From Halobacteriovorax marinus SJ (GTDB taxonomy: Bacteria; Bdellovibrionota; Bacteriovoracia; Bacteriovoracales; Bacteriovoracaceae), in the NCBI RefSeq assembly GCF_000210915.2, contig NC_016620.1, positions 2,170,001-2,234,000 of the forward strand: a stretch of DNA of 64,000 nt, in the 5' to 3' direction. Numbering within the stretch: position 1 is the stretch's first letter; every line of letters starts with the position of its first letter. Positions 3,008 to 28,191 of the stretch are shown here, in pieces. The position numbers and the translations under genes are program-made. A model generated the notes under the pieces. That model had not been told where the DNA came from and made no database searches. It saw only the letters and a list, made by a program, of their open reading frames with translations.

Positions 3008-4447
3008 TTAAGAGAAGAATCCTCCTCCCCACTTTCCACCTTTCTTACGAGGCTTCTTTTGCTTTTGGCCAGGCATTCCCGGAAGTCCAGGCATTCCACC
3101 ACCAGGCATACCTGGCATCCCCGGCATTCCACCGCCTTTCATCATTTGCATCATTCCACCCATCATCTTTTCCATTTGGCGAAACTTTGCGAAGAAGTCC
3201 TTAACTTGTGCTTCAGTTGTCCCCGAACCACCTGCAATTCTCTTCATACGAGACTCTTTCACTATTTTATAGTCTTGTCTCTCTTTCTTAGTCATAGAAT
3301 TAATTATCACACGCATGCGCTTCATTTCATCTTCCGCTGGAGAGAGGTCACCAACTTGTCTTAGCATTCCCCCCATTCCTGGAATCATTTTTAAGATAGA
3401 AGACATTGAGCCAAGGTTTTTCATCATGTCCATCTGCTTCATGAAATCATCAACAGTGAACTTTCCCTTTTCAAGGTTCTTCATCATATCTTCAGCATCG
3501 CGCTCATCTATAGCGTCTTGCGCTTTCTCAACTAGAGATACGACATCACCCATATCTAAAATTCTACCGGCAAGTCTATCTGGATGAAAGAGTTCAAGAT
3601 CCTTCATCTTTTCACCAGTTGAAATATATTTGATTGGAACGCCTGTTACATGACGAATAGAAAGGGCCGCACCACCTCTGGCATCAGAGTCCATCTTCGA
3701 GAGCACAACACCTGTAAGATTAACTGTCTCATGGAAACTCTTGGCCACATTTACAGCTTCCTGTCCTGTCATAGCGTCGGCGACCATTAGAACTTCAGGA
3801 TCAAACTTAGCGAGAGAGTCCCTCACCTCTTTAATCTGCCCCATTAGCTCAACATCAACGTGTAGACGTCCGGCCGTATCTATAATGACCACATCATACT
3901 TATTTTCTTTCGCAAAATTCATCGCGCTCTCTGCAATGAGCTTTGGATGAGTAGAGAGATCAGAGTCAAACCAATCCATATCCATACTCTTAGCAAGCGT
4001 GATCAGCTGATCCTTTGCTGCCGGTCTAAATGTATCGACCGGAACTAAGAGGACTTTCTTATTTTTCTTCTTCTTTAAGTGTAAAGATAATTTACCAGAG
4101 AAAGTTGTCTTACCTTGACCGTTAAGACCAACAACAAGAATAGGAACAATCCCCTCTCTTTCAAGATTGACCTCTTCGTTAGCAGAACCCATGATAGAGG
4201 CCAGTTCATCATTTACAATTTTAATAAATTGTTCCTCAGGATTTACACCCGAGATAACTTTCTCTCCAAGGGCCTTCTCTTTAACGGCACCAATAAATTG
4301 CTTAACAACTTTAAAATTAACATCGGCTTCTAAAAGAGCTGTACGCACTTGCTTGAGGGCATCTTCAATATTGCTCTCAGAGATCTTTCCCTTACCTTGT
4401 AGGTTTTTAAAAGCATCTGCAAATTTCTCACTTAAATTATCAAACAT
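3008..4447 (-). CDS. ffh: signal recognition particle protein Ffh
   Basis: SRP54-type GTPase that binds 4.5S RNA and signal peptides and delivers ribosomes to FtsY at the membrane. Visible motifs in order: N-domain helices, P-loop GLNGQGKTT (about residues 107-115), DTFRPAA (about 136), DTAGR (about 188), SKMDSDARGG (about 249; most family members have TK-D-GDARGG), then a Met-rich M domain from about residue 330 with the RNA-binding helices. The 479-residue length is slightly long because of a C-terminal tail of repeated GMPG units followed by Lys/Gly-rich sequence. A GAGGAAG ribosome site precedes the ATG. It lies 15 bp downstream of the HAD gene and is probably cotranscribed with it. Identification is very secure. 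Confidence 0.98.
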   Translation of the reverse strand: MFDNLSEKFADAFKNLQGKGKISESNIEDALKQVRTALLEADVNFKVVKQFIGAVKEKALGEKVISGVNPEEQFIKIVNDELASIMGSANEEVNLEREGIVPILVVGLNGQGKTTFSGKLSLHLKKKKNKKVLLVPVDTFRPAAKDQLITLAKSMDMDWFDSDLSTHPKLIAESAMNFAKENKYDVVIIDTAGRLHVDVELMGQIKEVRDSLAKFDPEVLMVADAMTGQEAVNVAKSFHETVNLTGVVLSKMDSDARGGAALSIRHVTGVPIKYISTGEKMKDLELFHPDRLAGRILDMGDVVSLVEKAQDAIDERDAEDMMKNLEKGKFTVDDFMKQMDMMKNLGSMSSILKMIPGMGGMLRQVGDLSPAEDEMKRMRVIINSMTKKERQDYKIVKESRMKRIAGGSGTTEAQVKDFFAKFRQMEKMMGGMMQMMKGGGMPGMPGMPGGGMPGLPGMPGQKQKKPRKKGGKWGGGFFS

Positions 4448-4462
4448 TTCTTCCTCTATTTT

Positions 4463-5134
4463 TTATGACTTTATTTCTCTTTCAATTATTTCAAAACAAT
4501 CAGCAGGCTTCTTCGCTTTAAAGTCTGCACCCACTTCATCTAAACTTTCTTCATTCACATGACTACACCAAAGCGCCGCAATGGATTTAACTCTATACTC
4601 TCTGGCCCCTTGAAGGTCAGTGAGGCTATCGCCAATGACAAAGACTTTCTTTTTATCATATTCACTGAGCATCTCTTCAAGACCCTTAGGGTGAGGCTTT
4701 GGAATAGTGTCATCCAAGCATCTGAACTCATAGAAGTACTTAGCGGCATCAAGTGATCTAAGTATGGCCAAGGTACTCATTCTGTCTCTTGCCGTCCACA
4801 CGTAGAGTCTATAGCCAGCAGCACTAAGTTTTACGAGAAGCTCCTTGATTCCATCAAAGAGAATATATTTAAGCTGATCTTGGTTTGAGATCTCAATCCA
4901 ACGATTTAAAATAGTCTCTCGAATCGTCTCATCGCTAATATCTAGACCAAAACGCTTTCCCAGCTCAAACATATCGGCAGTATACTTCTCAAGTACCTCA
5001 TCCCTTGGGACATCACGCTTGAGAACTTCGCCCATAAGTTGCTGAATTCCTTTTATGATCCCCTCTTGGCTTGAAATCAATGTGCCATCGCAATCAAAAA
5101 CGATATGTCCCTTAATTTCATTAGTGGTGGTCAT
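4463..5134 (-). CDS. HAD-superfamily phosphatase (phosphoglycolate phosphatase-like)
   Basis: Haloacid dehalogenase hydrolase of 223 residues. Motif I is FDCDGTLI near residue 14 with the nucleophilic Asp and the second acid two residues later, motif II is the WTARD Thr, the Lys is in KPHPKG, and motif III is GDSLTDLQGA, so the catalytic set is complete. A helical cap is inserted between motifs I and II, as in the Gph/PGP subfamily. Substrate cannot be read from sequence; phosphoglycolate is only the commonest assignment. A GGAG site lies six bases before the ATG. The gene precedes ffh and diverges from the dihydrouridine synthase across 54 bp. Confidence 0.85.
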   Translation of the reverse strand: MTTTNEIKGHIVFDCDGTLISSQEGIIKGIQQLMGEVLKRDVPRDEVLEKYTADMFELGKRFGLDISDETIRETILNRWIEISNQDQLKYILFDGIKELLVKLSAAGYRLYVWTARDRMSTLAILRSLDAAKYFYEFRCLDDTIPKPHPKGLEEMLSEYDKKKVFVIGDSLTDLQGAREYRVKSIAALWCSHVNEESLDEVGADFKAKKPADCFEIIEREIKS

Positions 5135-7015: not shown

Positions 7016-9154
7016 ATGAAAAGAATGAAGTCAAATAAATTAATTTTAATTGCAGTGGCCCTAGGCTACTTCTCGACTTCTTCTATTGCAGAGGAAAATC
7101 CTCGCTGTGTCGCCTCCAAGAGCGCCCTTAAATCTCTCGAAGACAAAATCTTTGATCAGCCAAGAATTAAAGATGGTGAAACTCTTCGCCAACTCGAAAT
7201 AAAAAACGCTGAGCTAGAAGCTGAAATGGCCATCTTAAATTCATTTAAGAGTATTCATAAACAGAGAGAAGAGTTTTTAAAAAAGCTAAACCCTACTCAC
7301 CCAGAGTCTATTTACTCTGATAGATCTAGCGTAAAGAGTGCAGTTCAGGGAGTGCAAACTCAAATCATTAGTAATTATATTCTCACATCAATTACTTCTA
7401 GTATTTCTGCAATTCTTGAAAATGAGAATTTTCTACGCACCTCTGACACAGCTATTACTTCAAGTCCAGAGTGGATTGCTGCTGGTGATAGTCAGTATGA
7501 AAAATTTAAAATTCTAGCAGACGGAAACCCTTACGATTTTATTAAGAATAGATGTAAAGAACTCGGAAGAGGCTCTAGTCCTAGTGATCCTTGTCGAAAC
7601 TTTTCAGAGATTGAAGATAAGGCACTTATCACTCTCTTTAAGCAAACGAATCAAGATATGGTTAGTGATGTTACTGATAACTTCTTTAAGGCCTTTGAGA
7701 CTGCTCGAGGAAATAAGGCCAATCTTGATAAAGAACTTAGAGAGATACAACATGATCATATTACAAAACATATCGACATTAATAGTCTAACGAAAGAGAG
7801 AACTATTCTCATAGGCTCTCTCTTAGATAAACAAGAAAAAACTGGTTTCTTTGATAGTGACAATCTATCTGAATTCTTCAAAGTCGACTCTATTGATCCT
7901 AGAAGAGATCAATTTATTGATAACCCTCTCAAAGCCGCTACTACAGGGGCTAGAAGTAATCACTCTATTGAAGAAATAAAAAAGCTTGAAGATAATTTTG
8001 AAGCAGCTAAAGAGTGTTTTGCAAAGTCAGCTTTTGGTATTATGAGCAATTGCCCAAAAGAAAGTGGTACAATTAATAATTTCTTTAATGGAATGAATGC
8101 TCTTGGATTCAACCAAATTGAAGGTGTTGCTGGGGAATATGACTCGAAGCTCTTTGATAACGACGCAGTAAAGAACTTTTCTTCAGATAAATTAGTGAAG
8201 GACATAGCGAAAAAAGAGATGAATGAACTCAAGCTTCTTGGAGTTACGCCAGAGCAGATGGATAACAAGAAATTCGCTGTTATGTCTAAGATTTGTCCGG
8301 AGCTACAGGTAACATCTGATCCACAATTTCCACAGACTCTTTGGAGTTGTCTCGACAAATTTAAAGATGGCGAAGAACAAAACCAATTTTATAATAATGA
8401 AAAAAATAGAATTACTAAACTATTAGAGGATAATAAAACTAAACTAGACCAAGCTCATCAATTCGTAAAAGATACTTATGGTGACATTGTTAAGTATTCT
8501 GCGGATATTGCGAGAGACTCTTGCGGGCAAGCGATTAAGACTTGTGGTGGTTCAAATTTAAAGCTTACAGCTCTAACGATTGGAACAGATGAATTTTTAA
8601 CAAACTTAAATAAAGTTGAATGGGAACTCTCTGGTAAGAAAGAAACTGAAGAGATTTTAGAAAGTACAAATAAGCAGTGCTCCCCTTTTATTCAAAGAGC
8701 TAGGCAAGCGAGAGCGGCCGCTTCACAAGGACAGGCAGCGCAAACTCCTTCAACAAATGAGATACTTGATATTTGTAAGTACGCAAGTAATGATTTGAAA
8801 ACTCTTCAAGCGAATACAGTCACAGAAGAGCAAAAGAAATTTAGAAGAAGCTATCACTCGAAGTATAATAGAGCGACAGGAAAGATGGAGCATATTAAGA
8901 AGACTGGTATAGGAACAATGATTGCGAAGTCAGCCGGAAACTCTCTAGTTAATACTGGGCTTCCACTCTATATTCAAAATATGGGATTTAAGAATTCACT
9001 TGCCTACAAGACAGATATGGCCATCTATCAGAAAAACTATATGTATATGCTCAACAATCCACAATTTTGGAGTACGAGTATGTTCACAGGCTATGGTGTT
9101 TCAAGTCCTCTAAATGGTTACGCAAGCTCTAGCTACTATAGCTTTGGCAACTAA
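7016..9154 (+). CDS. secreted helical protein of unknown function (712 aa)
   Basis: I do not recognise a family. A Lys/Arg-containing n-region, hydrophobic core and a SSIA-EE cleavage site mark a Sec signal peptide of about 25 residues; a second in-frame ATG at 7025 could be the true start. The mature part is charged, rich in Glu, Lys, Asn and Ser, and largely helical by appearance, with about ten scattered Cys including CRKEL, SCGQAIKTCGG and CSPF segments that may form disulfides in the periplasm. The C-terminus is Tyr/Asn/Ser-rich. AAGGA lies eleven bases upstream of the ATG. A flagellar-sigma-like promoter precedes it, so it may be co-regulated with motility genes. Confidence 0.75.
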   Translation: MKRMKSNKLILIAVALGYFSTSSIAEENPRCVASKSALKSLEDKIFDQPRIKDGETLRQLEIKNAELEAEMAILNSFKSIHKQREEFLKKLNPTHPESIYSDRSSVKSAVQGVQTQIISNYILTSITSSISAILENENFLRTSDTAITSSPEWIAAGDSQYEKFKILADGNPYDFIKNRCKELGRGSSPSDPCRNFSEIEDKALITLFKQTNQDMVSDVTDNFFKAFETARGNKANLDKELREIQHDHITKHIDINSLTKERTILIGSLLDKQEKTGFFDSDNLSEFFKVDSIDPRRDQFIDNPLKAATTGARSNHSIEEIKKLEDNFEAAKECFAKSAFGIMSNCPKESGTINNFFNGMNALGFNQIEGVAGEYDSKLFDNDAVKNFSSDKLVKDIAKKEMNELKLLGVTPEQMDNKKFAVMSKICPELQVTSDPQFPQTLWSCLDKFKDGEEQNQFYNNEKNRITKLLEDNKTKLDQAHQFVKDTYGDIVKYSADIARDSCGQAIKTCGGSNLKLTALTIGTDEFLTNLNKVEWELSGKKETEEILESTNKQCSPFIQRARQARAAASQGQAAQTPSTNEILDICKYASNDLKTLQANTVTEEQKKFRRSYHSKYNRATGKMEHIKKTGIGTMIAKSAGNSLVNTGLPLYIQNMGFKNSLAYKTDMAIYQKNYMYMLNNPQFWSTSMFTGYGVSSPLNGYASSSYYSFGN

Positions 9155-18770: not shown

Positions 18771-19187
18771 ATGAGTAAGAAAGTAGTCGTAAGCGCTTGC
18801 CTAGCGGGTTTAAACTGCCGTTATGATGGGGACAATAAAAAGCGCGATGAAATAGTAGAAATGATTAAGCGCGGAGAAGCGATTCCCGTCTGCCCTGAGC
18901 AATTGGGAGGCCTTAGCACGCCAAGGGATCCTGCTGAATCAGTCGACTCAAAGGTACTTACTATTAATGGAAAAGACGTCACATTCGAATATAATAAGGG
19001 AGCGAAAGAGGCCCTCTCTCTAGCACAAATCTTTGGTGCCAGTGAGGCTCTACTCAAGAGCCGCTCCCCTATGTGTGGCGCGGGCGAAGTCTATGATGGA
19101 AGTTTTAAGGGCAAGCTTAGAAATGGTGATGGAATCTTCACTAAACTCTTAAAGGAAGCTGGAATAAAAGTAGATCCAATCGATTAA
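18771..19187 (+). CDS. DUF523 family protein
   Basis: A 138-residue protein matching DUF523 throughout: VVSACLAGLNCRYDG at the N-terminus with two conserved Cys, PVCPEQLGGLSTPRDPAE with a third, and SRSPMCGAGEVYDGSF near residue 100. The conserved Cys pattern suggests metal or thiol chemistry, but the family function is unknown to me. It appears to be transcribed from a leaderless extended -10 promoter. Its last four bases overlap the end of the convergent histidine kinase gene. Confidence 0.92.
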   Translation: MSKKVVVSACLAGLNCRYDGDNKKRDEIVEMIKRGEAIPVCPEQLGGLSTPRDPAESVDSKVLTINGKDVTFEYNKGAKEALSLAQIFGASEALLKSRSPMCGAGEVYDGSFKGKLRNGDGIFTKLLKEAGIKVDPID

Positions 19188-20641
19188 AGGTCCAGAGGAA
19201 ATTCAAGGGTAATCTTAGTATTCTCGCTATTATTATCGATAAATAATCTTCCCTTATGCTCTTTAGCTGTGGAGGAAGAGATACTAAGTCCAAGACCGGT
19301 TCCTTCCCCAATATCTTTGGTGGTAAAGAATGGCTCAAACATCTTCTCCTGAACTTCTCCAGCAATGCCTGTCCCACAGTCAATAACAGAGAAAGATATC
19401 AACTCATCACTTTTAATAACGAGAAGTTTTATCCAAGGTTTCTCCATATTTTTTACTTCATCTCGAGCATTATTTAATAGATTAATAATAACTTGAGAGA
19501 CCTTCACCTCTTGGCACTTAATCTTAGTTGAGAAATCAAAGCCTATAAATTCTGTAGAAAGTTCAATCCCTTTTTCATTTAGAGACATCTGGCAAAGGTC
19601 TAGAACTCGCTCTATCATATCGTAGATAACAACATCTTTAAATTGATCAGTCGATGTATCCCTAGAGAGTCTTTTGAGCGACGTAATAGTCTTTGTCATT
19701 CTATCAACGGTTCGATTGATCATACTTGCAAAGTGCTTTATACGGTCTCTATCCAGTTCATCTGCTCTTAATAAATGAAGAATTTTCTTTCCACTAAAAG
19801 AGAGAACAGTTAGAGGATTATTAATTTCGTGAGCAATATTAGCGGCCATCTCCCCTAAGCTTGCAAGCCTAGCTGAATTAATTGAGGCCGCTTTTTGGAG
19901 CTGAATCTCTTTTTCTTGACGAAGAAATTTATCATTAGTTTCTAGGTTTGCTCGCTCTACTCTCTCAAGCATAAGGTTGATTGAATCAGCAACGTAATCA
20001 AGCTCATCTATAGACTTAGTATTCTTGGCCAGAGAAATTCTCTCTATTTTAAGAGAATTAAAATCTGAGAACTGTAAAAAGCGAACAATATAATCAAGAT
20101 GTTTAGTAATGAAGATTCTAAACAGATAGAGCATCACAAAAATAACCATAAAGGTTTTTACTAATTGTGCTAAGAAGAAAGTAGTGAGCCTTGAAATCAA
20201 ATTTTCAGTAATATGATCCCTAGTGGCCCAAATAACTAACTCACCAAGCTTGTGGGTATAATTACTTTCGTTCAAATCTAACTTAAATCTTGTTTCAAAC
20301 TTCTCTAATGTCTTAAATTCATGATCAGTATTTTGATAATATACTTGTCCATCCTCATCATAAATAGCAACACCAATCAAATCTCTTAGTTTTAAAATAG
20401 CATCCATCTGCACTTGAATTTGCATATCATCTAAATTCCAGAGGGACCTAGACAGAGAAGAAGTATTGGAGCTTCCAATATGCTTAATTGTCTGTGATAG
20501 ATAAGTAATATCCCTCTGGTACTCTATATAGTACTGGAGCCCAGTCGTGATCAAAGTTATAAAAGAAGACGCAAAGAGAATAGCGAGCATCAACTTCTTT
20601 CTTAGGGAGGTAAATTTCTTAGTTTCAATCTCTTTGAACAT
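19184..20641 (-). CDS. membrane sensor histidine kinase
   Basis: Orthodox histidine kinase of 485 residues. Two transmembrane segments (about 14-36 and 150-175) enclose a periplasmic sensor domain of about 110 residues; a coiled-coil linker leads to the dimerisation domain with AHEINNPLTVL (phospho-His near 269). The ATPase domain shows NLLNNARDE, DCGTGI, the FFTTK F-box and GTGLGLS. All catalytic motifs are intact. No response regulator gene lies beside it, so its partner is elsewhere. It lies downstream of flagellin but a strong terminator at 20711-20730 separates them. No clear Shine-Dalgarno was noted. Confidence 0.95.
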   Translation of the reverse strand: MFKEIETKKFTSLRKKLMLAILFASSFITLITTGLQYYIEYQRDITYLSQTIKHIGSSNTSSLSRSLWNLDDMQIQVQMDAILKLRDLIGVAIYDEDGQVYYQNTDHEFKTLEKFETRFKLDLNESNYTHKLGELVIWATRDHITENLISRLTTFFLAQLVKTFMVIFVMLYLFRIFITKHLDYIVRFLQFSDFNSLKIERISLAKNTKSIDELDYVADSINLMLERVERANLETNDKFLRQEKEIQLQKAASINSARLASLGEMAANIAHEINNPLTVLSFSGKKILHLLRADELDRDRIKHFASMINRTVDRMTKTITSLKRLSRDTSTDQFKDVVIYDMIERVLDLCQMSLNEKGIELSTEFIGFDFSTKIKCQEVKVSQVIINLLNNARDEVKNMEKPWIKLLVIKSDELISFSVIDCGTGIAGEVQEKMFEPFFTTKDIGEGTGLGLSISSSTAKEHKGRLFIDNNSENTKITLEFPLDL

Positions 20642-21593: not shown

Positions 21594-21719
21594 ATGATTC
21601 CTCCTTGTTAGTCCGTCTTCTTCTAAGACTTGATCACCGTACCGTGAGGATCAATAAGCATACTGCTATAGATATAATGTGAATTGAAACAGTCATTGTG
21701 ACCTTTGTTTCATAAAACT

Positions 21720-21746
21720 ATTCGGTGGATCGTAAATATACTTAAC
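21720..21746 (-). promoter_or_regulatory. possible sigma-28-like promoter of flagellin
   Basis: On the minus strand TTAAGTAT, 11 bp, ACCGAATT, with the same spacing as the sites at 6950, 17734 and 21835 but a weak -10. Predicted leader about 120 nt. A sigma-70-like TATATC at about 21670 is an alternative. Confidence 0.35.
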
Positions 21747-21834
21747 ACTATTTTTTACTTTTTTTAAAAAATAATACCCGACAAAAACACTCTCAAGCTT
21801 TTAAAATTATTAACTATAAAGGTGGTAAATCCTT

Positions 21835-21861
21835 TTAACTTTCCCTCTAAAATGACGATAA
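21835..21861 (+). promoter_or_regulatory. sigma-28-like promoter of chemotaxis-like operon
   Basis: TTAACTTT, 11 bp, GACGATAA, ending seven bases before the ATG at 21869. Geometry is identical to the 6950 site. No Shine-Dalgarno follows, so the mRNA would start at or next to the start codon. Confidence 0.5.
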
Positions 21862-21868
21862 ATTCTCT

Positions 21869-24580
21869 ATGAGTACAAAGCCACTTATATTCATATATCC
21901 CCTATCTGATACGATGAAAAAACTCAAAGAAGCAGTTGAGGAAATTTCTGAGTCGGAAGGAGTTGAAATCTACGAGGTCGATGACCTTACTGAGGTGGCG
22001 CAATTAGTTCCTACAATTGGACAATCTCTTTCAATATATGGGGCACCTAAAAAGTGTGCCATGGCCCTTAAGCAGCTTCGTAAAGTAAATGCGAAGCTGA
22101 ATTCAAAGGTTCTTCTACTTAGTGAAAAAGGAATTCCTAGAAAGACATTAGATAAATTCTCAAAGATTGGATTAACTGAATTTATTCAAGAACCAGTCGC
22201 TGCCAAAACTCTACTCTACAAAGTAAAGCTACAACTTAAGTCTATTGTAAATGATGAATTTGGAGATGAGGATGAAGATGAAGTCGGTGTTAAAAAGAAA
22301 GGTGACGAACAAGTAGAAGATGAAGAGTCTCTATTTAAATCAAAGTCAAAGAGTGGTCAAAGTGAAGATGACGAAGAAGGATTAAATTATCTCACAAAGA
22401 AAAAGAAGAAATCAAATTTTGAGATAGAAGAAGCTCCAGAGAAGAAAAGGAAGAATAACTATCATGAAGAAGAGATTGATTCTCATTGGCAAGGTAAACT
22501 TACCAAAGAAGAACTCTCATTAGATGACGTTGAAGAGCCAAAAAAAGAAGAGAAAGACGAAAATATAATAGATAATTACCTCAGAGGTAATACAGAGAAG
22601 AAAGAAGAGACGTTAGAAGAAGAGGAAAAAGAAAGAAGAAACTATAAAGATGAAATCCTTGATGAAAACCTTGCTAGCAACGCTACAAGAGAAAAAATGG
22701 AGGATGATTATGGTATTCACAAAAAGAAGAAAGAAGTTAGCCTAGACATAGAAGAAAATAATAATAGATCTAAAGAAGACTTTGGTAATAGTGATACTCA
22801 CTACCGAGGAACAATTACTAAAACTGAAGAAGAAATAGAAGAAGAGGAAGAAAAGAAAAAGAAGGGTCTATCCGTCCTTGAGATAGAAGATAATAAAGAA
22901 GATATCTACTTAGACGAGGATGAAGAATACGAAACAAGAAAAAAGAAGGAAAGTTTAAGTATTCTAGATATTGAAGATGAAGGAATTACTCAAGAAAAAG
23001 AAGAAGAGCAAGCTGAGGGCAAAGATTATAGTGAAAAGAAAGAAAAGCTCTTAGAAGAAGATTCTCATAAGAAGGGTGATAGTAGTGTCGAACATTTAGA
23101 TAGTGAAGATGAATCAGGAGAAGGATCTACTGATAAGATTGACATGTATTTAAGAGGTGGGGCTGCAAAGAAAGAAGAGGAAGAAAGCGAAGAAGATGAG
23201 GACCTCTATAAGAGAGAAACTCCCCTCTCTTTAGATGAAGAAGATCGAAGTGACGATAACAATTCAGAGGACGAAGATGAAGAAGGTAATCAAAAAGATA
23301 AAGACTTCCATTTAGATATAGAAGACACTCAGTCTAAAGATAAAGATATTGAAGAAGAACGAGAAAAATATGAAGAAGATGATGATCACTATGAGCGTCG
23401 AAAAGACACTAAATTAGATTTAATTGATAGTGACTATAAGAAAGATGATGAAAGTGAAGAAGAAAACGATAAAAATTATAGATCAACAAAAGCATCTTTA
23501 GTCGAAGAAGAAGACGAAGATGACAAAGAAAAGAGAAAGAAAGAGGCTGAGCTAGAGTTTGAAAAAAACAAGTCGCATGATTCAAAGGTTGACGATCTTA
23601 CAAAGAAAAAGCTTCAAGCTGATAGCAAGGTAGATAAAATTCAAACTCACTACAGTAGTGAAGCAAGTGTTAGTCATATTGATGATGACTGGCACTTTTC
23701 CAAAACAAAGAAAAACGAACAAGTTGAAGAAGAAAGAAAGAATGATGACTCATTAGAGATGAGTTATGGTGAGAAGCTCGATTTAGGGGAGCAGACTATT
23801 GATTACCGCAAACTAAAAGATGAGTTTGGTGGCATTACAATTGATCGCTCAGGAAATAAAGAGAAAAAGCAAGGCCCTAAATACTACGGTGACGGAACAG
23901 GAAAGAAAAAGAAAACACCTAGCTATTATAGAGATGATATTGAGAATGAAAGTGAACAGCTAGAAGAACAAGATGAGAACCAAGAAGAGTTAGAAGGAGA
24001 AGAGATCTTTGAACCTAACTCAAAAGGACTTGAAAATATAGTAAGAGTCTTAAGTTTTTATGACAAAACAGAGAAAGCTGATGAAGAATGCTATCGCTTC
24101 ATTTCAAAAGTTATACAAGAAAAGTTTGCAGGAGAAGTTGCCCTCTTCTATTACGATGAACGTAAATCGAGAGTCACTGAAGCGACCAATTCTCTAAACC
24201 TTTTAAATGATCTTGAACTAGAAGTTAAACGCCCTCTTTGGGATAAGCTCTTCTCTAAAAACTATAGAGATTGGAAAGAGATGAAGCTTCCAACTTGGAG
24301 TGATCCTACCTTTCAAGATAAGAATATACACTTTATATACCCCTACTATGAGGGAGCAAGCCTTATGGGATTTAGCGTTTCTTGGTTCAGTAAAGAATTT
24401 AATGAAGAAAGGTGTGGCGAGCTAGAGGTTACTCTAGAATCTTTACGTGGTTTTGTAATTGCTAAATTTAGAGAAGGTAAAAATAGTGGAGAATATAACG
24501 GGAAGGCAGCGAAAGAGGAAGTAAAGGAAAACCCAATCAAATCTTTCTTTGGAAAATTCTTTGGAAAGAAGGCATCGTAA
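21869..24580 (+). CDS. acidic receiver-like scaffold protein (903 aa)
   Basis: Residues 1-125 resemble a response-regulator receiver fold (alternating strands and helices, a PxxxKTLLYKVKLQLK end) but without a clear phospho-acceptor triad. Residues about 130-700 are extremely rich in Glu, Lys, Asp and Ser and surely disordered; they contain degenerate alternating short motifs of two kinds, a YLRGxxxKKEE type and an LSxLDIED type. Residues about 715-880 form a folded C-terminal domain with GAF-like character (EVALFYYDERKSR, HFIYPYYEG). The last residues are Lys/Phe-rich and amphipathic. It heads a five-gene operon with CheY- and CheX-like proteins, so a signalling scaffold is inferred. Function unknown. 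Confidence 0.75.
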   Translation: MSTKPLIFIYPLSDTMKKLKEAVEEISESEGVEIYEVDDLTEVAQLVPTIGQSLSIYGAPKKCAMALKQLRKVNAKLNSKVLLLSEKGIPRKTLDKFSKIGLTEFIQEPVAAKTLLYKVKLQLKSIVNDEFGDEDEDEVGVKKKGDEQVEDEESLFKSKSKSGQSEDDEEGLNYLTKKKKKSNFEIEEAPEKKRKNNYHEEEIDSHWQGKLTKEELSLDDVEEPKKEEKDENIIDNYLRGNTEKKEETLEEEEKERRNYKDEILDENLASNATREKMEDDYGIHKKKKEVSLDIEENNNRSKEDFGNSDTHYRGTITKTEEEIEEEEEKKKKGLSVLEIEDNKEDIYLDEDEEYETRKKKESLSILDIEDEGITQEKEEEQAEGKDYSEKKEKLLEEDSHKKGDSSVEHLDSEDESGEGSTDKIDMYLRGGAAKKEEEESEEDEDLYKRETPLSLDEEDRSDDNNSEDEDEEGNQKDKDFHLDIEDTQSKDKDIEEEREKYEEDDDHYERRKDTKLDLIDSDYKKDDESEEENDKNYRSTKASLVEEEDEDDKEKRKKEAELEFEKNKSHDSKVDDLTKKKLQADSKVDKIQTHYSSEASVSHIDDDWHFSKTKKNEQVEEERKNDDSLEMSYGEKLDLGEQTIDYRKLKDEFGGITIDRSGNKEKKQGPKYYGDGTGKKKKTPSYYRDDIENESEQLEEQDENQEELEGEEIFEPNSKGLENIVRVLSFYDKTEKADEECYRFISKVIQEKFAGEVALFYYDERKSRVTEATNSLNLLNDLELEVKRPLWDKLFSKNYRDWKEMKLPTWSDPTFQDKNIHFIYPYYEGASLMGFSVSWFSKEFNEERCGELEVTLESLRGFVIAKFREGKNSGEYNGKAAKEEVKENPIKSFFGKFFGKKAS

Positions 24581-24583
24581 ATT

Positions 24584-25621
24584 ATGAGTAAAGTTAGAGA
24601 TTATTTCTTTATAGATATAGAACATTTAGGAGATAAAAAATTATTTCCTTATCATTTATTTGTTTACAACCCAAATAGTGATTCGACGAGCCCTTTCTTA
24701 AAGGCCAATACTCCCCTAGTAAAAGATAAGTTAGACTTTCTTGAGTTTATATTAAGTAAAGGCGGTAGGCTCGCAGTCGATAAGAGACAAAAGAATACAT
24801 TTTTAACAACTCACTCTTATAAAGAAGATGATATTGAAGATCTACAAGAAAAGGTTCATCATCTTGAAGAAGAAAGAGAGAGAAAAATCAAGGAACTAGA
24901 GAAGCAGACTCAGATTCTTGGAGAAGTAAAATTTAAAGAAGAACTTCTAGGTGCAATTGAAGACAATGACTTTTCAGCACTTATAGAGAGAGTAAGGCTA
25001 GAAACAGACACATTTAGCGTGCGCGTATCTCATACAGTAAGTCTCGCCAGTTATTTATGTGGAATACTACTAAGAGAGGATAACTTTATTAATAGAATTG
25101 TTGCAGTATCATACTATTTAGCCAAGAACTGTGACATGAAGGATGAAGAAACTCTGGGAGATTTAATTTGCGCAGCCTTCTTCTCTCACCTTGGTATTAC
25201 TCAGTTAGATTATAAGCTAGGGAGTAAGCCACATTTAGAATATAATAAAGCAGAACTAAAAGAGTATAAGAAGCACCCTAACCTCTCTCATCACCTCTTA
25301 ACAAAGAGTGGTGTTGAATTGAGCGACAGATGTATGAATATAATATTTCAACATCATGAACGAAATGATGGTTCGGGATACCCAATGTATAAGAAAGGTG
25401 AACATATTGACCAACTTTCCTTAATACTTGGTGCCGTTTCACATATTTTTGAATATTCACAGGGAAAGGTCACTGGAACAACAACAGATCTTAAGACTGT
25501 GATAAGAAATTTAAAAAATAAGACTTTCACTGCTGGACTCGAGTTCGAGTTTGGAGATAAAATATATGAAAGTTTAACAACAATTATAAATACAGAATCA
25601 AATAGCGATAACGCAGCTTAG
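24584..25621 (+). CDS. degenerate HD-GYP-like signalling protein
   Basis: A 345-residue protein. The N-terminal 80 residues are a unique domain, followed by a coiled coil (about 85-115, Glu/Lys-rich) and an HD-GYP-like domain from about residue 130. The GYP motif is preserved as HHERNDGSGYP (about 255-266), but where HD-GYP enzymes have the HD pair of HDIGK this protein has SHLGITQ (about 201), so the metal centre is probably incomplete. It may bind but not hydrolyse cyclic di-GMP. It starts four bases after the previous stop and is cotranscribed. No Shine-Dalgarno stronger than the preceding coding end is visible. Confidence 0.75.
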   Translation: MSKVRDYFFIDIEHLGDKKLFPYHLFVYNPNSDSTSPFLKANTPLVKDKLDFLEFILSKGGRLAVDKRQKNTFLTTHSYKEDDIEDLQEKVHHLEEERERKIKELEKQTQILGEVKFKEELLGAIEDNDFSALIERVRLETDTFSVRVSHTVSLASYLCGILLREDNFINRIVAVSYYLAKNCDMKDEETLGDLICAAFFSHLGITQLDYKLGSKPHLEYNKAELKEYKKHPNLSHHLLTKSGVELSDRCMNIIFQHHERNDGSGYPMYKKGEHIDQLSLILGAVSHIFEYSQGKVTGTTTDLKTVIRNLKNKTFTAGLEFEFGDKIYESLTTIINTESNSDNAA

Positions 25622-25629
25622 GAGAAAAA

Positions 25630-26022
25630 ATGGCACTAAAGAGTGATATGAAAATTCTTGTTATTGACGACATGGCAACGATGAGAAAAATTATCAAGAA
25701 TATGCTTCAACAAATTGGTTTTAAGAATATTACTGAAGCCGATGATGGAGCCACAGCATGGCCAATGATCCAAGAGGCAATGAATAGTCCTGCCCCTTAT
25801 GAGTTTATTGTTTCCGATTGGAATATGCCGCAAATGAGTGGTCTAGACCTACTAAAGAAAGTAAGGGAGACAGAAGAGCTTAAGAAATTACCTTTTCTCA
25901 TGATTACAGCAGAAGCTGAGCAAGGAAATGTAGTGATTGCAGTTAAGGCCGGAGTAAGTAATTTCATCGTAAAGCCTTTCTCAGCGTCGGTACTAAAAGA
26001 GAAAATAGAAAAAATCTTTTAA
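25630..26022 (+). CDS. CheY-like single-domain response regulator
   Basis: Stand-alone receiver of 130 residues with a complete active site: Asp13 and Asp14 (VIDD), phospho-acceptor Asp63 (SDWNMP), Thr93 (ITAEAEQ) and Lys115 (VKPFS). The DWNMP signature and MRKIIKNMLQQIG helix are those of CheY proteins that bind the flagellar switch. A TAGGAG site precedes the ATG. Its position beside a CheX phosphatase and a histidine-phosphotransfer-like protein indicates chemotaxis-type signalling. The kinase that phosphorylates it is not in the window's operon. Confidence 0.93.
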   Translation: MALKSDMKILVIDDMATMRKIIKNMLQQIGFKNITEADDGATAWPMIQEAMNSPAPYEFIVSDWNMPQMSGLDLLKKVRETEELKKLPFLMITAEAEQGNVVIAVKAGVSNFIVKPFSASVLKEKIEKIF

Positions 26023-26035
26023 TTAGGAAATATCT

Positions 26036-26539
26036 ATGAGCTTATTAAATGATCCTTCAATGAAAGAAGTTGTTGATGAATTTTGTGATGAATCAGCGAA
26101 ACTCTTTGATGAACTAGAAGAGATTCTAGAAGAATTTGAAGACGATCCTTCACAAACAGAAAAGCTCGAACAATTTGGACAAATCATAGATAGAGTTATG
26201 GGTTCAGCTAAGACTATAGGAGCTGATGAAATAGCAACATTCTGTGAACTAGGAAAAGTTATAGGTTATAAATCAAGTCAAGTCTCAGATGAAGCCTTAC
26301 TTGAAGTAGTTTGTGCCATAATGTTTGACTCTCTTGAACTGCTTAAGAAAATGATTAAGCAGATAAAAGAAGGAAACACGTCGAGTCTTGAGCAAACAAG
26401 CTCAAAGGCATTCATCACTAGACTTAAGTGGCTTAAAGAAAAATTTAACGATATAGAGCGCTCTTCTTGTGCTGCTGATCCAGATGGCAATCTCTCTCAA
26501 ACATCAATTGATGACCTGATGAGTAGCCTTGGATTATAA
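26036..26539 (+). CDS. Hpt-like protein with Asp in place of the phospho-His
   Basis: A 167-residue acidic helical protein. The segment IIDRVMGSAKTIGA (residues 50-63) aligns with the histidine-phosphotransfer signature AHxLKGSAxxxG, but the phosphorylated His is Asp52 and the following Lys is Met55. Helices before and after fit a four-helix Hpt bundle (FCDESAKLFDELEEIL; EIATFCELGKVIG). It therefore cannot relay phosphate through His; it may act as a phosphomimic, a decoy or a binding partner of CheY. An AGGAAA site precedes the ATG. It sits between the cheY-like and cheX-like genes. Confidence 0.7.
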   Translation: MSLLNDPSMKEVVDEFCDESAKLFDELEEILEEFEDDPSQTEKLEQFGQIIDRVMGSAKTIGADEIATFCELGKVIGYKSSQVSDEALLEVVCAIMFDSLELLKKMIKQIKEGNTSSLEQTSSKAFITRLKWLKEKFNDIERSSCAADPDGNLSQTSIDDLMSSLGL

Positions 26540-26550
26540 TTGGAGTAATA

Positions 26551-27057
26551 ATGACTAATCAAAGTAATTTTTTAACATTCTCAAAGCCGTTTATAGATGC
26601 AGCAAAGAATGTTTTTGAAACCATGGTCTTTACAAAGCTAGACCCTCAAAAACCAATGGTAAAAACGGATAGTGTCTCCAAAGGAGATATCTCAGCAGTT
26701 CTTGGGCTAAACGGTGAAGTGGAAGTAGATGGCGAACAAAAGCCTTATAGGGCAATGCTTGTTATCTCTTGGCCATATGATACATACTTTAAGGTAGCTA
26801 GTGCTATGCTTATGGATACTTTCACTGAATATAACGATGAGATTGCGGATGTTGGTGGAGAAATTTGTAATATGATAATGGGTAACGCTAAAAGAGATTT
26901 AGCGACTCAAGGTTATACATCTAATATGGCGATTCCTTCAATGATAGAGGGCTCTAATCATCAAATCAAGTACCCTGCAGGAACGACTGTAATTTTAATA
27001 CCAATCAAGTCGGCCCATGGTGATATGTATATCGAACTCTGTTACTCACAGGCCTAA
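26551..27057 (+). CDS. cheX: CheX-like CheY-P phosphatase
   Basis: A 168-residue protein of the CheC/CheX/FliY superfamily. The active-site helix is seen as EIADVGGEICNMIMGNAKRDL with the Glu and Asn of the E-x-x-N motif (GGEICNMIMGN), and the flanking beta strands (AMLVISWP; TVILIPIKS) match CheX. It dephosphorylates CheY-P. A GGAG site precedes the ATG. It is the last gene of the operon, with the stop touching the convergent metallophosphoesterase gene. The assignment rests on the motif and context. Confidence 0.88.
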   Translation: MTNQSNFLTFSKPFIDAAKNVFETMVFTKLDPQKPMVKTDSVSKGDISAVLGLNGEVEVDGEQKPYRAMLVISWPYDTYFKVASAMLMDTFTEYNDEIADVGGEICNMIMGNAKRDLATQGYTSNMAIPSMIEGSNHQIKYPAGTTVILIPIKSAHGDMYIELCYSQA

Positions 27058-28191
27058 TTAAGAAAATTCTTCAAAGGGGAGCTCTGTCCTCCCCTTCCAA
27101 TTATTCAAATTAATATCATAAGTTTCTTTTTCTCTATCTAAAATATCAACTTGGGCAAATGAGAGTTGCTCTCCTGACTGGTTCTTTCCAAAGTCTAAAT
27201 TATACATTCTAGTCCAAGTACCAGTATTAATGAAAATACCACCATCTGTGAACGACCTGAAACTAGGGTCATGAGTATGACCTACAATTAAGCATTTTAC
27301 TTCTGGTCTCTCTTTAAAGAAGTCCATAGTCATAGTTTCATAATCTTTGAATAATTCGAGTTCATTCATACAATGCTTATACATCTTTTTTAAACTTCTC
27401 TCTTGTTTAAAAAGATAGATAGATCGAACCATTATAAAGTAATAACTAGTGGCAAAGAGAAATCTAAGAGTAAAGAAAGTGTCATAGATTAAACCATTAA
27501 TAATGAATTTTCGAATCGGCCTAACTGCATTTACATGATCACGTTCTTCTTTAAATTTATTGATCACTCTGGTCACATAGTAAGATCCCCAAGGAGGAAG
27601 AAAATACTTCTCACCACTCTCTGATTCAACAATAGACTTCACAGGATGAAAGTGGTGCGCCAGTTCATATTCATGACCGTGTTTTAAGACAACACCTGGA
27701 GTAGGAATATACTCTCCGTTATTATTCAATTGAATCTCTACACGCTCTTTATTCTTATCTTCAAAGAGTTCATAAAACCTATTTCTAAGAGACTCAAAGA
27801 CAAACTCAGCATCATGGTTTCCAATAATATAAACTAATTTATTATTCTTATGAGAAACAAAGTTATTAAGGGCATCAATAACTTCCCTGTGGGCCTTTAT
27901 AATCATTTCGAATTTACTAAGAGCGGCCTTTTCACTCCAAAACTCATCATCAAAGTAATTTACAAATGGTACGGCAAGAAGATCAAAGAGGTCCCCATTA
28001 ATAATTAATTCAACTTCCCTATTTAGATAATCGCCAGAGGAATAATAATCTAGAAAATCGACAAGCTCTTCATCAAAGTGAAAATCTTCAAGGTAGTTTC
28101 TTCTTCCATTGACTACAACTCCTGCACCAAGATGAATATCAGAAATGACAAGAATAGTTTTTTCGATTTTATTCTTTCGAAGGAATCTCAT
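27058..28191 (-). CDS. calcineurin-like metallophosphoesterase
   Basis: A 377-residue protein with all metallophosphoesterase motifs: SDIHLG, GDLFD, GNHDAE, KHGHEYE and VGHTHDP, coordinating a two-metal site. Between the GNHD and GHTHD motifs is an insertion with a hydrophobic stretch (about 235-265) that could dip into the membrane, as in UDP-diacylglucosamine hydrolases (LpxH-like) and related enzymes. Substrate unknown. Its start lies inside the end of the upstream small gene (23-bp overlap), so the two are translationally coupled. The stop touches that of the convergent cheX-like gene. Confidence 0.88.
   Translation of the reverse strand: MRFLRKNKIEKTILVISDIHLGAGVVVNGRRNYLEDFHFDEELVDFLDYYSSGDYLNREVELIINGDLFDLLAVPFVNYFDDEFWSEKAALSKFEMIIKAHREVIDALNNFVSHKNNKLVYIIGNHDAEFVFESLRNRFYELFEDKNKERVEIQLNNNGEYIPTPGVVLKHGHEYELAHHFHPVKSIVESESGEKYFLPPWGSYYVTRVINKFKEERDHVNAVRPIRKFIINGLIYDTFFTLRFLFATSYYFIMVRSIYLFKQERSLKKMYKHCMNELELFKDYETMTMDFFKERPEVKCLIVGHTHDPSFRSFTDGGIFINTGTWTRMYNLDFGKNQSGEQLSFAQVDILDREKETYDINLNNWKGRTELPFEEFS

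Follow-up and report, generated by a model that had tools for sequence, protein, structure and literature searches.

The window analysed here, a stretch of 64,000 nt from the genome of Halobacteriovorax marinus SJ, contains at 21869-27057 five open reading frames that all run in one direction and are separated by 3, 8, 13 and 11 nt, in gene order (Table 1). An earlier reading of this DNA from the sequence alone regarded them as one operon behind a FliA (sigma-28)-like promoter. The exact coordinates and the gaps of 3-13 nt confirm the operon, and the putative promoter is supported by the sequence of its box, by the recurrence of this box upstream of orthologous genes and by the presence of a FliA gene in the genome. 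Seven nucleotides separate the box, TTAA-N15-GACGATAA, from the ATG of the scaffold gene. Of the regions upstream of ten orthologous scaffold genes, six have a TAAA/TAAG-N15/16-[G/C]NCGATAA box at the equivalent place, the remaining regions deviating from the scan pattern in spacing or sequence. The conserved box and the FliA gene suggest that the operon belongs to the FliA regulon. Its transcript is probably nearly leaderless, the predicted -10 box being so near the start codon.

Table 1. Features of the operon and its predicted promoter (positions in the window).
Feature	Position	Strand	Basis and remarks
FliA (sigma-28)-like promoter, predicted	21835..21861	+	TTAA 21835-21838, 15-nt spacer, GACGATAA 21854-21861
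Scaffold, 903 aa	21869..24580	+	No Pfam or NCBIfam family; AlphaFold model, Foldseek
Degenerate HD-GYP-related protein, 345 aa	24584..25621	+	PF13487 above cut-off
CheY, 130 aa	25630..26022	+	PF00072; D13/D14, D63, T93 and K115 all present
His-less Hpt (pseudo-P1), 167 aa	26036..26539	+	Alignments, CheA-P1 fold, predicted model, tail comparison
CheX-type CheY-P phosphatase, 168 aa, predicted	26551..27057	+	PF13690; catalytic ExxN intact

The order scaffold-HD-CheY-Hpt-CheX recurs exactly in ten other genomes of our phylum sample, adjoining flagellin and metallophosphoesterase genes, and the identical order is found in 21 of the 80 loci of a separate collection, retrieved with an alignment of the His-less Hpt. 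The two sets overlap in part and the sampled species are related, so that counts of loci and genomes overstate the independent support; nonetheless, the recurrence of the five-gene order is far beyond chance. The check named beforehand in the sequence-only reading, namely whether the orthologues in related genomes are clustered or scattered, was thus decided in favor of clustering, and the conservation of gene order supports the expectation of a conserved, flagellum-linked module that would set the level of CheY-P. The arrangement had also been called undescribed, and in the literature searched, outside which most subscription journals lie, we found neither a name for this gene order nor any paper on these genes.

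A flagellin gene lies upstream of the operon in divergent orientation. On the minus strand of the region at 21594-21760 we noticed by eye a sigma-28-like box, TAAG-N15-CACCGAAT, and the flagellin/scaffold intergenic region may carry two divergent FliA promoters. Some family f9 genomes (G017, G033) have 15-18 flagellin-domain matches, compared with the usual 6-8. Next to the flagellin gene, at 19184-20641 (-), is the gene of a histidine kinase whose sensor domain is of the CHASE5 type, retained only in close relatives. On the other side, at 27058-28191 (-), a metallophosphoesterase gene is convergent with cheX, and such a gene is found near cheX in 23 of the 80 loci.

CheY, CheX, the scaffold and the HD protein

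In Pfam searches, the five products matched, in gene order, no family, HD_5 (PF13487, 53.5 bits), Response_reg (PF00072, 89.6 bits), Hpt (PF01627, 27.4 bits, cut-off 24.6) and CheX (PF13690, 66.5 bits, cut-off 27). The CheY protein and its E. coli namesake share 48% identity, and the acidic pair, phospho-Asp, Thr and Lys of the receiver fold (Table 1) are aligned with their counterparts; the next-best receiver match to it in the genome is 34% identical. Against PRK10610, the NCBIfam CheY equivalog, it scores 144.5 bits, which is under the cut-off of 189 and by far the top score among 96 families. The missed cut-off weakens only the claim to be that exact equivalog. In CheX, the catalytic Glu and Asn are invariant in all 48 of 48 homologues. 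The protein is the sole CheX match in the genome, in which no CheC match was found, and judged by sequence it is the only recognised CheY-P phosphatase there; CheZ above the Pfam cut-off is found in none of the 144 genomes of the phylum.

The scaffold belongs to no family in Pfam or NCBIfam, and its AlphaFold model is confident only at residues 1-124 and ~718-869. The former region is predicted to adopt a CheY-like receiver fold (the matches listed by Foldseek are receiver domains only), and according to the sequence this pseudo-receiver lacks the acidic pocket, the phospho-Asp and the Lys. The latter is predicted to be an alpha/beta domain, GAF-like by eye, and the C-terminus carries a IKSFFGKFFGKK-like tail. 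Between them lies a disordered, charged linker of ~590 residues (35% D+E, 19% K+R), in which IDxYLRG-like and LDIED-like repeats exceed those in shuffled sequences in most members. The repeats of the window protein are encoded at 22259-23970, and the IDxYLRG-like motif slightly recalls the FliM peptide EIDALLNG. The protein is conserved across 10 aligned sequences. The roles that we give to this 903-aa protein, presumably scaffolding, and to the HD protein are suggested by adjacency only.

The second protein had been read as a degenerate HD-GYP, and rightly so, both the HD pair and the third metal-ligand Asp being replaced. Instead of the metal-binding HD pair, the scaffold-linked orthologues have SH, CH, AH or HH (KD in L066), the third Asp has become His, and in 11 of 12 orthologues the three metal-ligand positions are lost. 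The motifs KH, HHE and GxGYP or GxGFP are mostly retained, with GSGYP in the window protein and GYP or GFP in the orthologues. Hydrolysis of c-di-GMP by such a protein is unlikely. In other Bacteriovoracaceae, receiver-containing proteins lie between CheX and CheY (L071:10343-12037, L069:1732-3531 and L067:1327-3495), and those of L071 and L069 also match the HD domain. Because of this position, we suggest that the receiver domain of the scaffold and the HD protein may go back to a single ancestral protein.

The N-terminal region of the HD protein is weakly similar to that of Bd1817-like proteins. Bd1817 is an HD-GYP protein of solved structure, which its published description left without a known role (PMC4159591). 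Genome G072 is HD100-like, and its Bd1817 protein (L082:708-2185) is identical to PDB 3TM8 except for the start; the gene is divergent from a His-less Hpt gene, and genes for CheY, CheX and a receiver-HD protein lie ~3-6 kb away. Pairing of Bd1817-type proteins with the His-less Hpt recurs in many Bdellovibrionota loci, and the genome of H. marinus has an additional Bd1817-like gene (L132), separate from that of the operon HD protein.

A His-less Hpt with a docking-type tail

The fourth protein was assigned to the P1 type on the basis of a profile search, in which CheA P1 domains were the best matches, and of VIA-align. Residues 8-138 of the predicted structure align with the CheA P1 five-helix bundle with a Z of 15.9, and the P1 domain of Rhodobacter sphaeroides CheA3, solved with CheY6, aligns with the model with a Z of 15.8; a Foldseek search with the protein gave no match under E 0.001. 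As the sequence-only reading had noticed, the phospho-His is missing: in every aligned member an Asp (Asp52 here) stands where the His of HxxKG belongs, and for this reason the label of a phosphotransfer protein was dropped. The conserved residues are Gln49 (Q or N), Asp52, Arg53 and Met55, and the signature [QN]xxDR[IV]MG is retained in 78 of the 80 loci, with Leu for Met once.

We propose that these proteins represent a CheA-P1-derived family, undescribed in the literature searched (mostly without subscription journals) and so far confined to Bdellovibrionota. Among the matches listed for the family, the names are those of Bdellovibrionota, except for two metagenome-assembled genomes titled only 'bacterium' or 'Proteobacteria bacterium'. 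No plasmid record encodes a His-less Hpt, and a mobile origin was rejected. In L129 (G000:C1, ~2356.4-2359.5 kb) there is a second, tail-less His-less Hpt with the motif DRIYG, and a solitary CheY-like regulator is encoded ~2 kb away (4434-4865 (-) and 7094-7501 (-)); the same arrangement is found in L141, and the two genes are possibly a paralogous pair.

Beyond the bundle, the model predicts with low confidence a flexible linker (~141-155), followed by a short C-terminal helix, SQTSIDDLMSSLGL, which resembles the end of E. coli CheZ, ASQDQVDDLLDSLGF (sequence from the genome record of E. coli), and is also similar to the start of the genome's own FliM, VLSQDEVDALLNAV (first residues MAQVLSQDEVDALLNAV). 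CheZ and FliM bind one surface of CheY through such peptides. The resemblance to the E. coli 15-mer (BLOSUM score 42, p <= 0.0003 in shuffles) marks the tail as a putative docking helix of the CheZ type, and when 1191 ORFs were scored against this C-terminal 15-mer, the top 20 were all His-less Hpts. By itself, the 24-residue tail matched nothing in the PDB. A clear tail is missing in 4 of the 24 aligned members and in about one fifth of the 80 loci, notably in proteins encoded next to a second CheA type, and any docking to CheY would therefore not be universal in the family. A tail so short could have arisen by convergence. We rejected the identity of the whole protein with CheZ: it scores 10.6 bits against a Pfam cut-off of 30.7 (the best E-value among 24 members is 0.028), and DxxxQ is absent at the site.

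The kinase genes and a probable split system

The absence of CheA, CheW and a receptor, emphasized in the sequence-only reading, holds for the operon itself and fails for the genome, which has a single CheA (H-kinase_dim model), accompanied by CheW and MCP genes, 440 kb from the operon. This cluster also includes CheR and CheB, and it lacks a stand-alone CheY and CheX; a second chemotaxis cluster comprises MCP, CheR, CheD and a triple CheW. In relatives, the genes of the operon are found together with those of the kinase. In L179 the order is CheX, Bd1817-like, CheY, Hpt, HD, scaffold, CheA, CheW, MCP, and in L184 (the same region as L070) it is CheB, CheR, CheW, CheA, CheX, Bd1817-like, CheY, Hpt. 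The module adjoins chemotaxis genes in L207 and L138 (in the former those of MCP, a CheA-like protein and CheR), the His-less Hpt adjoins CheA in L136, L137, L139, L189, L195 and L202, and in other families CheY-CheX stands next to CheR, MCP, CheW and CheA (L047) or CheB, CheR and MCP (L051). Among 144 genomes, CheX and CheA are both present in 85 and only one of them in 5, and the His-less Hpt is accompanied by CheX in 52 of 52 genomes and by CheA in 51 of 52, all these genomes being related and hence not independent.

The notion of an independent, kinase-free module did not survive this comparison and was rejected, since relatives join the same genes to CheA, CheW, MCP, CheR and CheB, and the one CheA cluster of this genome is without CheY and CheX. 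Because relatives keep CheA alongside and the CheA cluster here lacks CheY and CheX, the best reading of the operon is that of the split-off output half of the cell's only flagellar chemotaxis system, an ordinary one. It must be noted that membership of both halves in one pathway would follow from co-location in relatives and from single copies, rather than from phosphotransfer.

Proposed mechanism, alternatives and known systems

We consider it probable that the locus as a whole combines such a split output half with a CheY-P-binding His-less Hpt, a scaffold and an HD regulator. According to this scenario, the distant CheA would phosphorylate the CheY of the operon, as the intact sites and the gene linkage suggest, CheY-P would bind FliM, and CheX would strip the phosphate from CheY-P. 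The C-terminal helix of the His-less Hpt may dock where FliM and CheZ bind CheY, and the bundle, with Asp and Gln/Asn replacing the active-His region, could then cover the phosphorylation site. The protein would thus capture CheY-P as a sink, an adaptor or perhaps a phosphatase, and it could compete with FliM or hand CheY-P over to CheX. The scaffold, with its pseudo-receiver and multi-motif linker, might keep the components assembled, perhaps close to the motor or the pole, and the degenerate HD protein might be a structural or ligand-gated regulator. It is tempting to go further and to consider the His-less Hpts as a new class of CheY-P regulators across Bdellovibrionota, in which P1-derived, FliM/CheZ-like capture and dephosphorylation (or a sink) would be gated by HD partners of the Bd1817 kind; this generalization is tentative, and we would not be surprised to see it fail.

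CheY-P phosphatases use acid-amide pairs, D/Q in CheZ and E/N in CheX, and the His-less Hpt could be a second such enzyme, in which Asp52 and Gln/Asn49 form the pair and the docking tail delivers it. All 78 motif-bearing loci have Q or N three positions ahead of the invariant Asp, the tail is CheZ-like, and the phylum sample has no CheZ. Both residues in question lie on helix B; in the complex of CheA3 P1 with CheY6 this helix faces the CheY active site, its His opposite the phospho-Asp (PMC2817712). However, the order of amide and acid is reversed with respect to DxxxQ and ExxN, the motif may serve packing or binding alone, and the enzyme seems redundant with a CheX of intact motif encoded next door. 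We therefore regard a second phosphatase as rather unlikely.

Less likely still is the mechanism implied by the sequence-only reading, a kinase-free module whose degenerate HD protein would be the c-di-GMP sensor and would set the level of CheY-P via the His-less Hpt and CheX. An HD protein does adjoin CheX/CheY in most loci, that of the operon keeps KH, HHE and GxGYP/GxGFP, and inactive HD-GYP proteins can bind c-di-GMP or partners and signal in this way (PMC4159591). On the other hand, a kinase is supplied by the CheA of the genome and by the gene order of relatives, the HD pair and the third metal ligand are lost, and the related, inactive Bd1817 has a closed nucleotide pocket (PMC4159591). 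Finally, a non-flagellar output (e.g. gliding, pole selection or prey attachment), with a kinase different from CheA acting on CheY, would suit the large multi-motif scaffold, the CHASE5 histidine kinase just past the flagellin gene and the kinase and response regulator genes that precede the scaffold gene of L183 and L187, but it is very improbable in view of the FliA-type promoter, the adjoining flagellin, the linkage to and co-occurrence with CheA, and the similarity of this CheY to that of E. coli.

The proposed split output half with a CheY-P-binding His-less Hpt provides a gene-level hypothesis for the control of the motor signal without CheZ in predatory Bdellovibrionota. It gives a chemotaxis context to Bd1817, thus far a structure without an assigned role, and it proposes a new CheY-P-binding family derived from a disabled kinase domain. 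In CheA systems with a CheY/CheX output arm, such as those of Borrelia and Thermotoga, the CheY residues and the ExxN of CheX are likewise intact and CheA, CheW, CheR, CheB and MCPs are likewise encoded elsewhere in the genome. What differs here is that the output genes are found away from those of the kinase, in one operon with the pseudo-receiver scaffold, the degenerate HD protein and the His-less Hpt. The HD protein of the operon differs from Bd1817 in the motifs retained: Bd1817 has the HD pair and lacks the Tyr of GYP, whereas the window protein has lost HD and kept GYP.

The His-less Hpt itself shares the five-helix bundle with CheA P1, its best match in structure and sequence, but it stands alone, has an invariant Asp for the phospho-His and Met for the Lys, and is extended by a docking-type helix on a flexible linker. 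Like CheZ, it is helical, with a flexible linker and a C-terminal helix, and its gene lies next to that of CheY; unlike CheZ, its bundle is of the P1 type and has no DxxxQ. A further analogy is offered by ChpA of Pseudomonas aeruginosa, in which Hpt folds without phospho-His occur in a chemosensory system (PMC10782961), but there they sit inside the kinase, whereas here the domain is a separate, conserved protein with a tail of the CheY-docking type. Overall, the system is a variant of known chemotaxis, in which the His-less Hpt with its docking-type tail is the new part.
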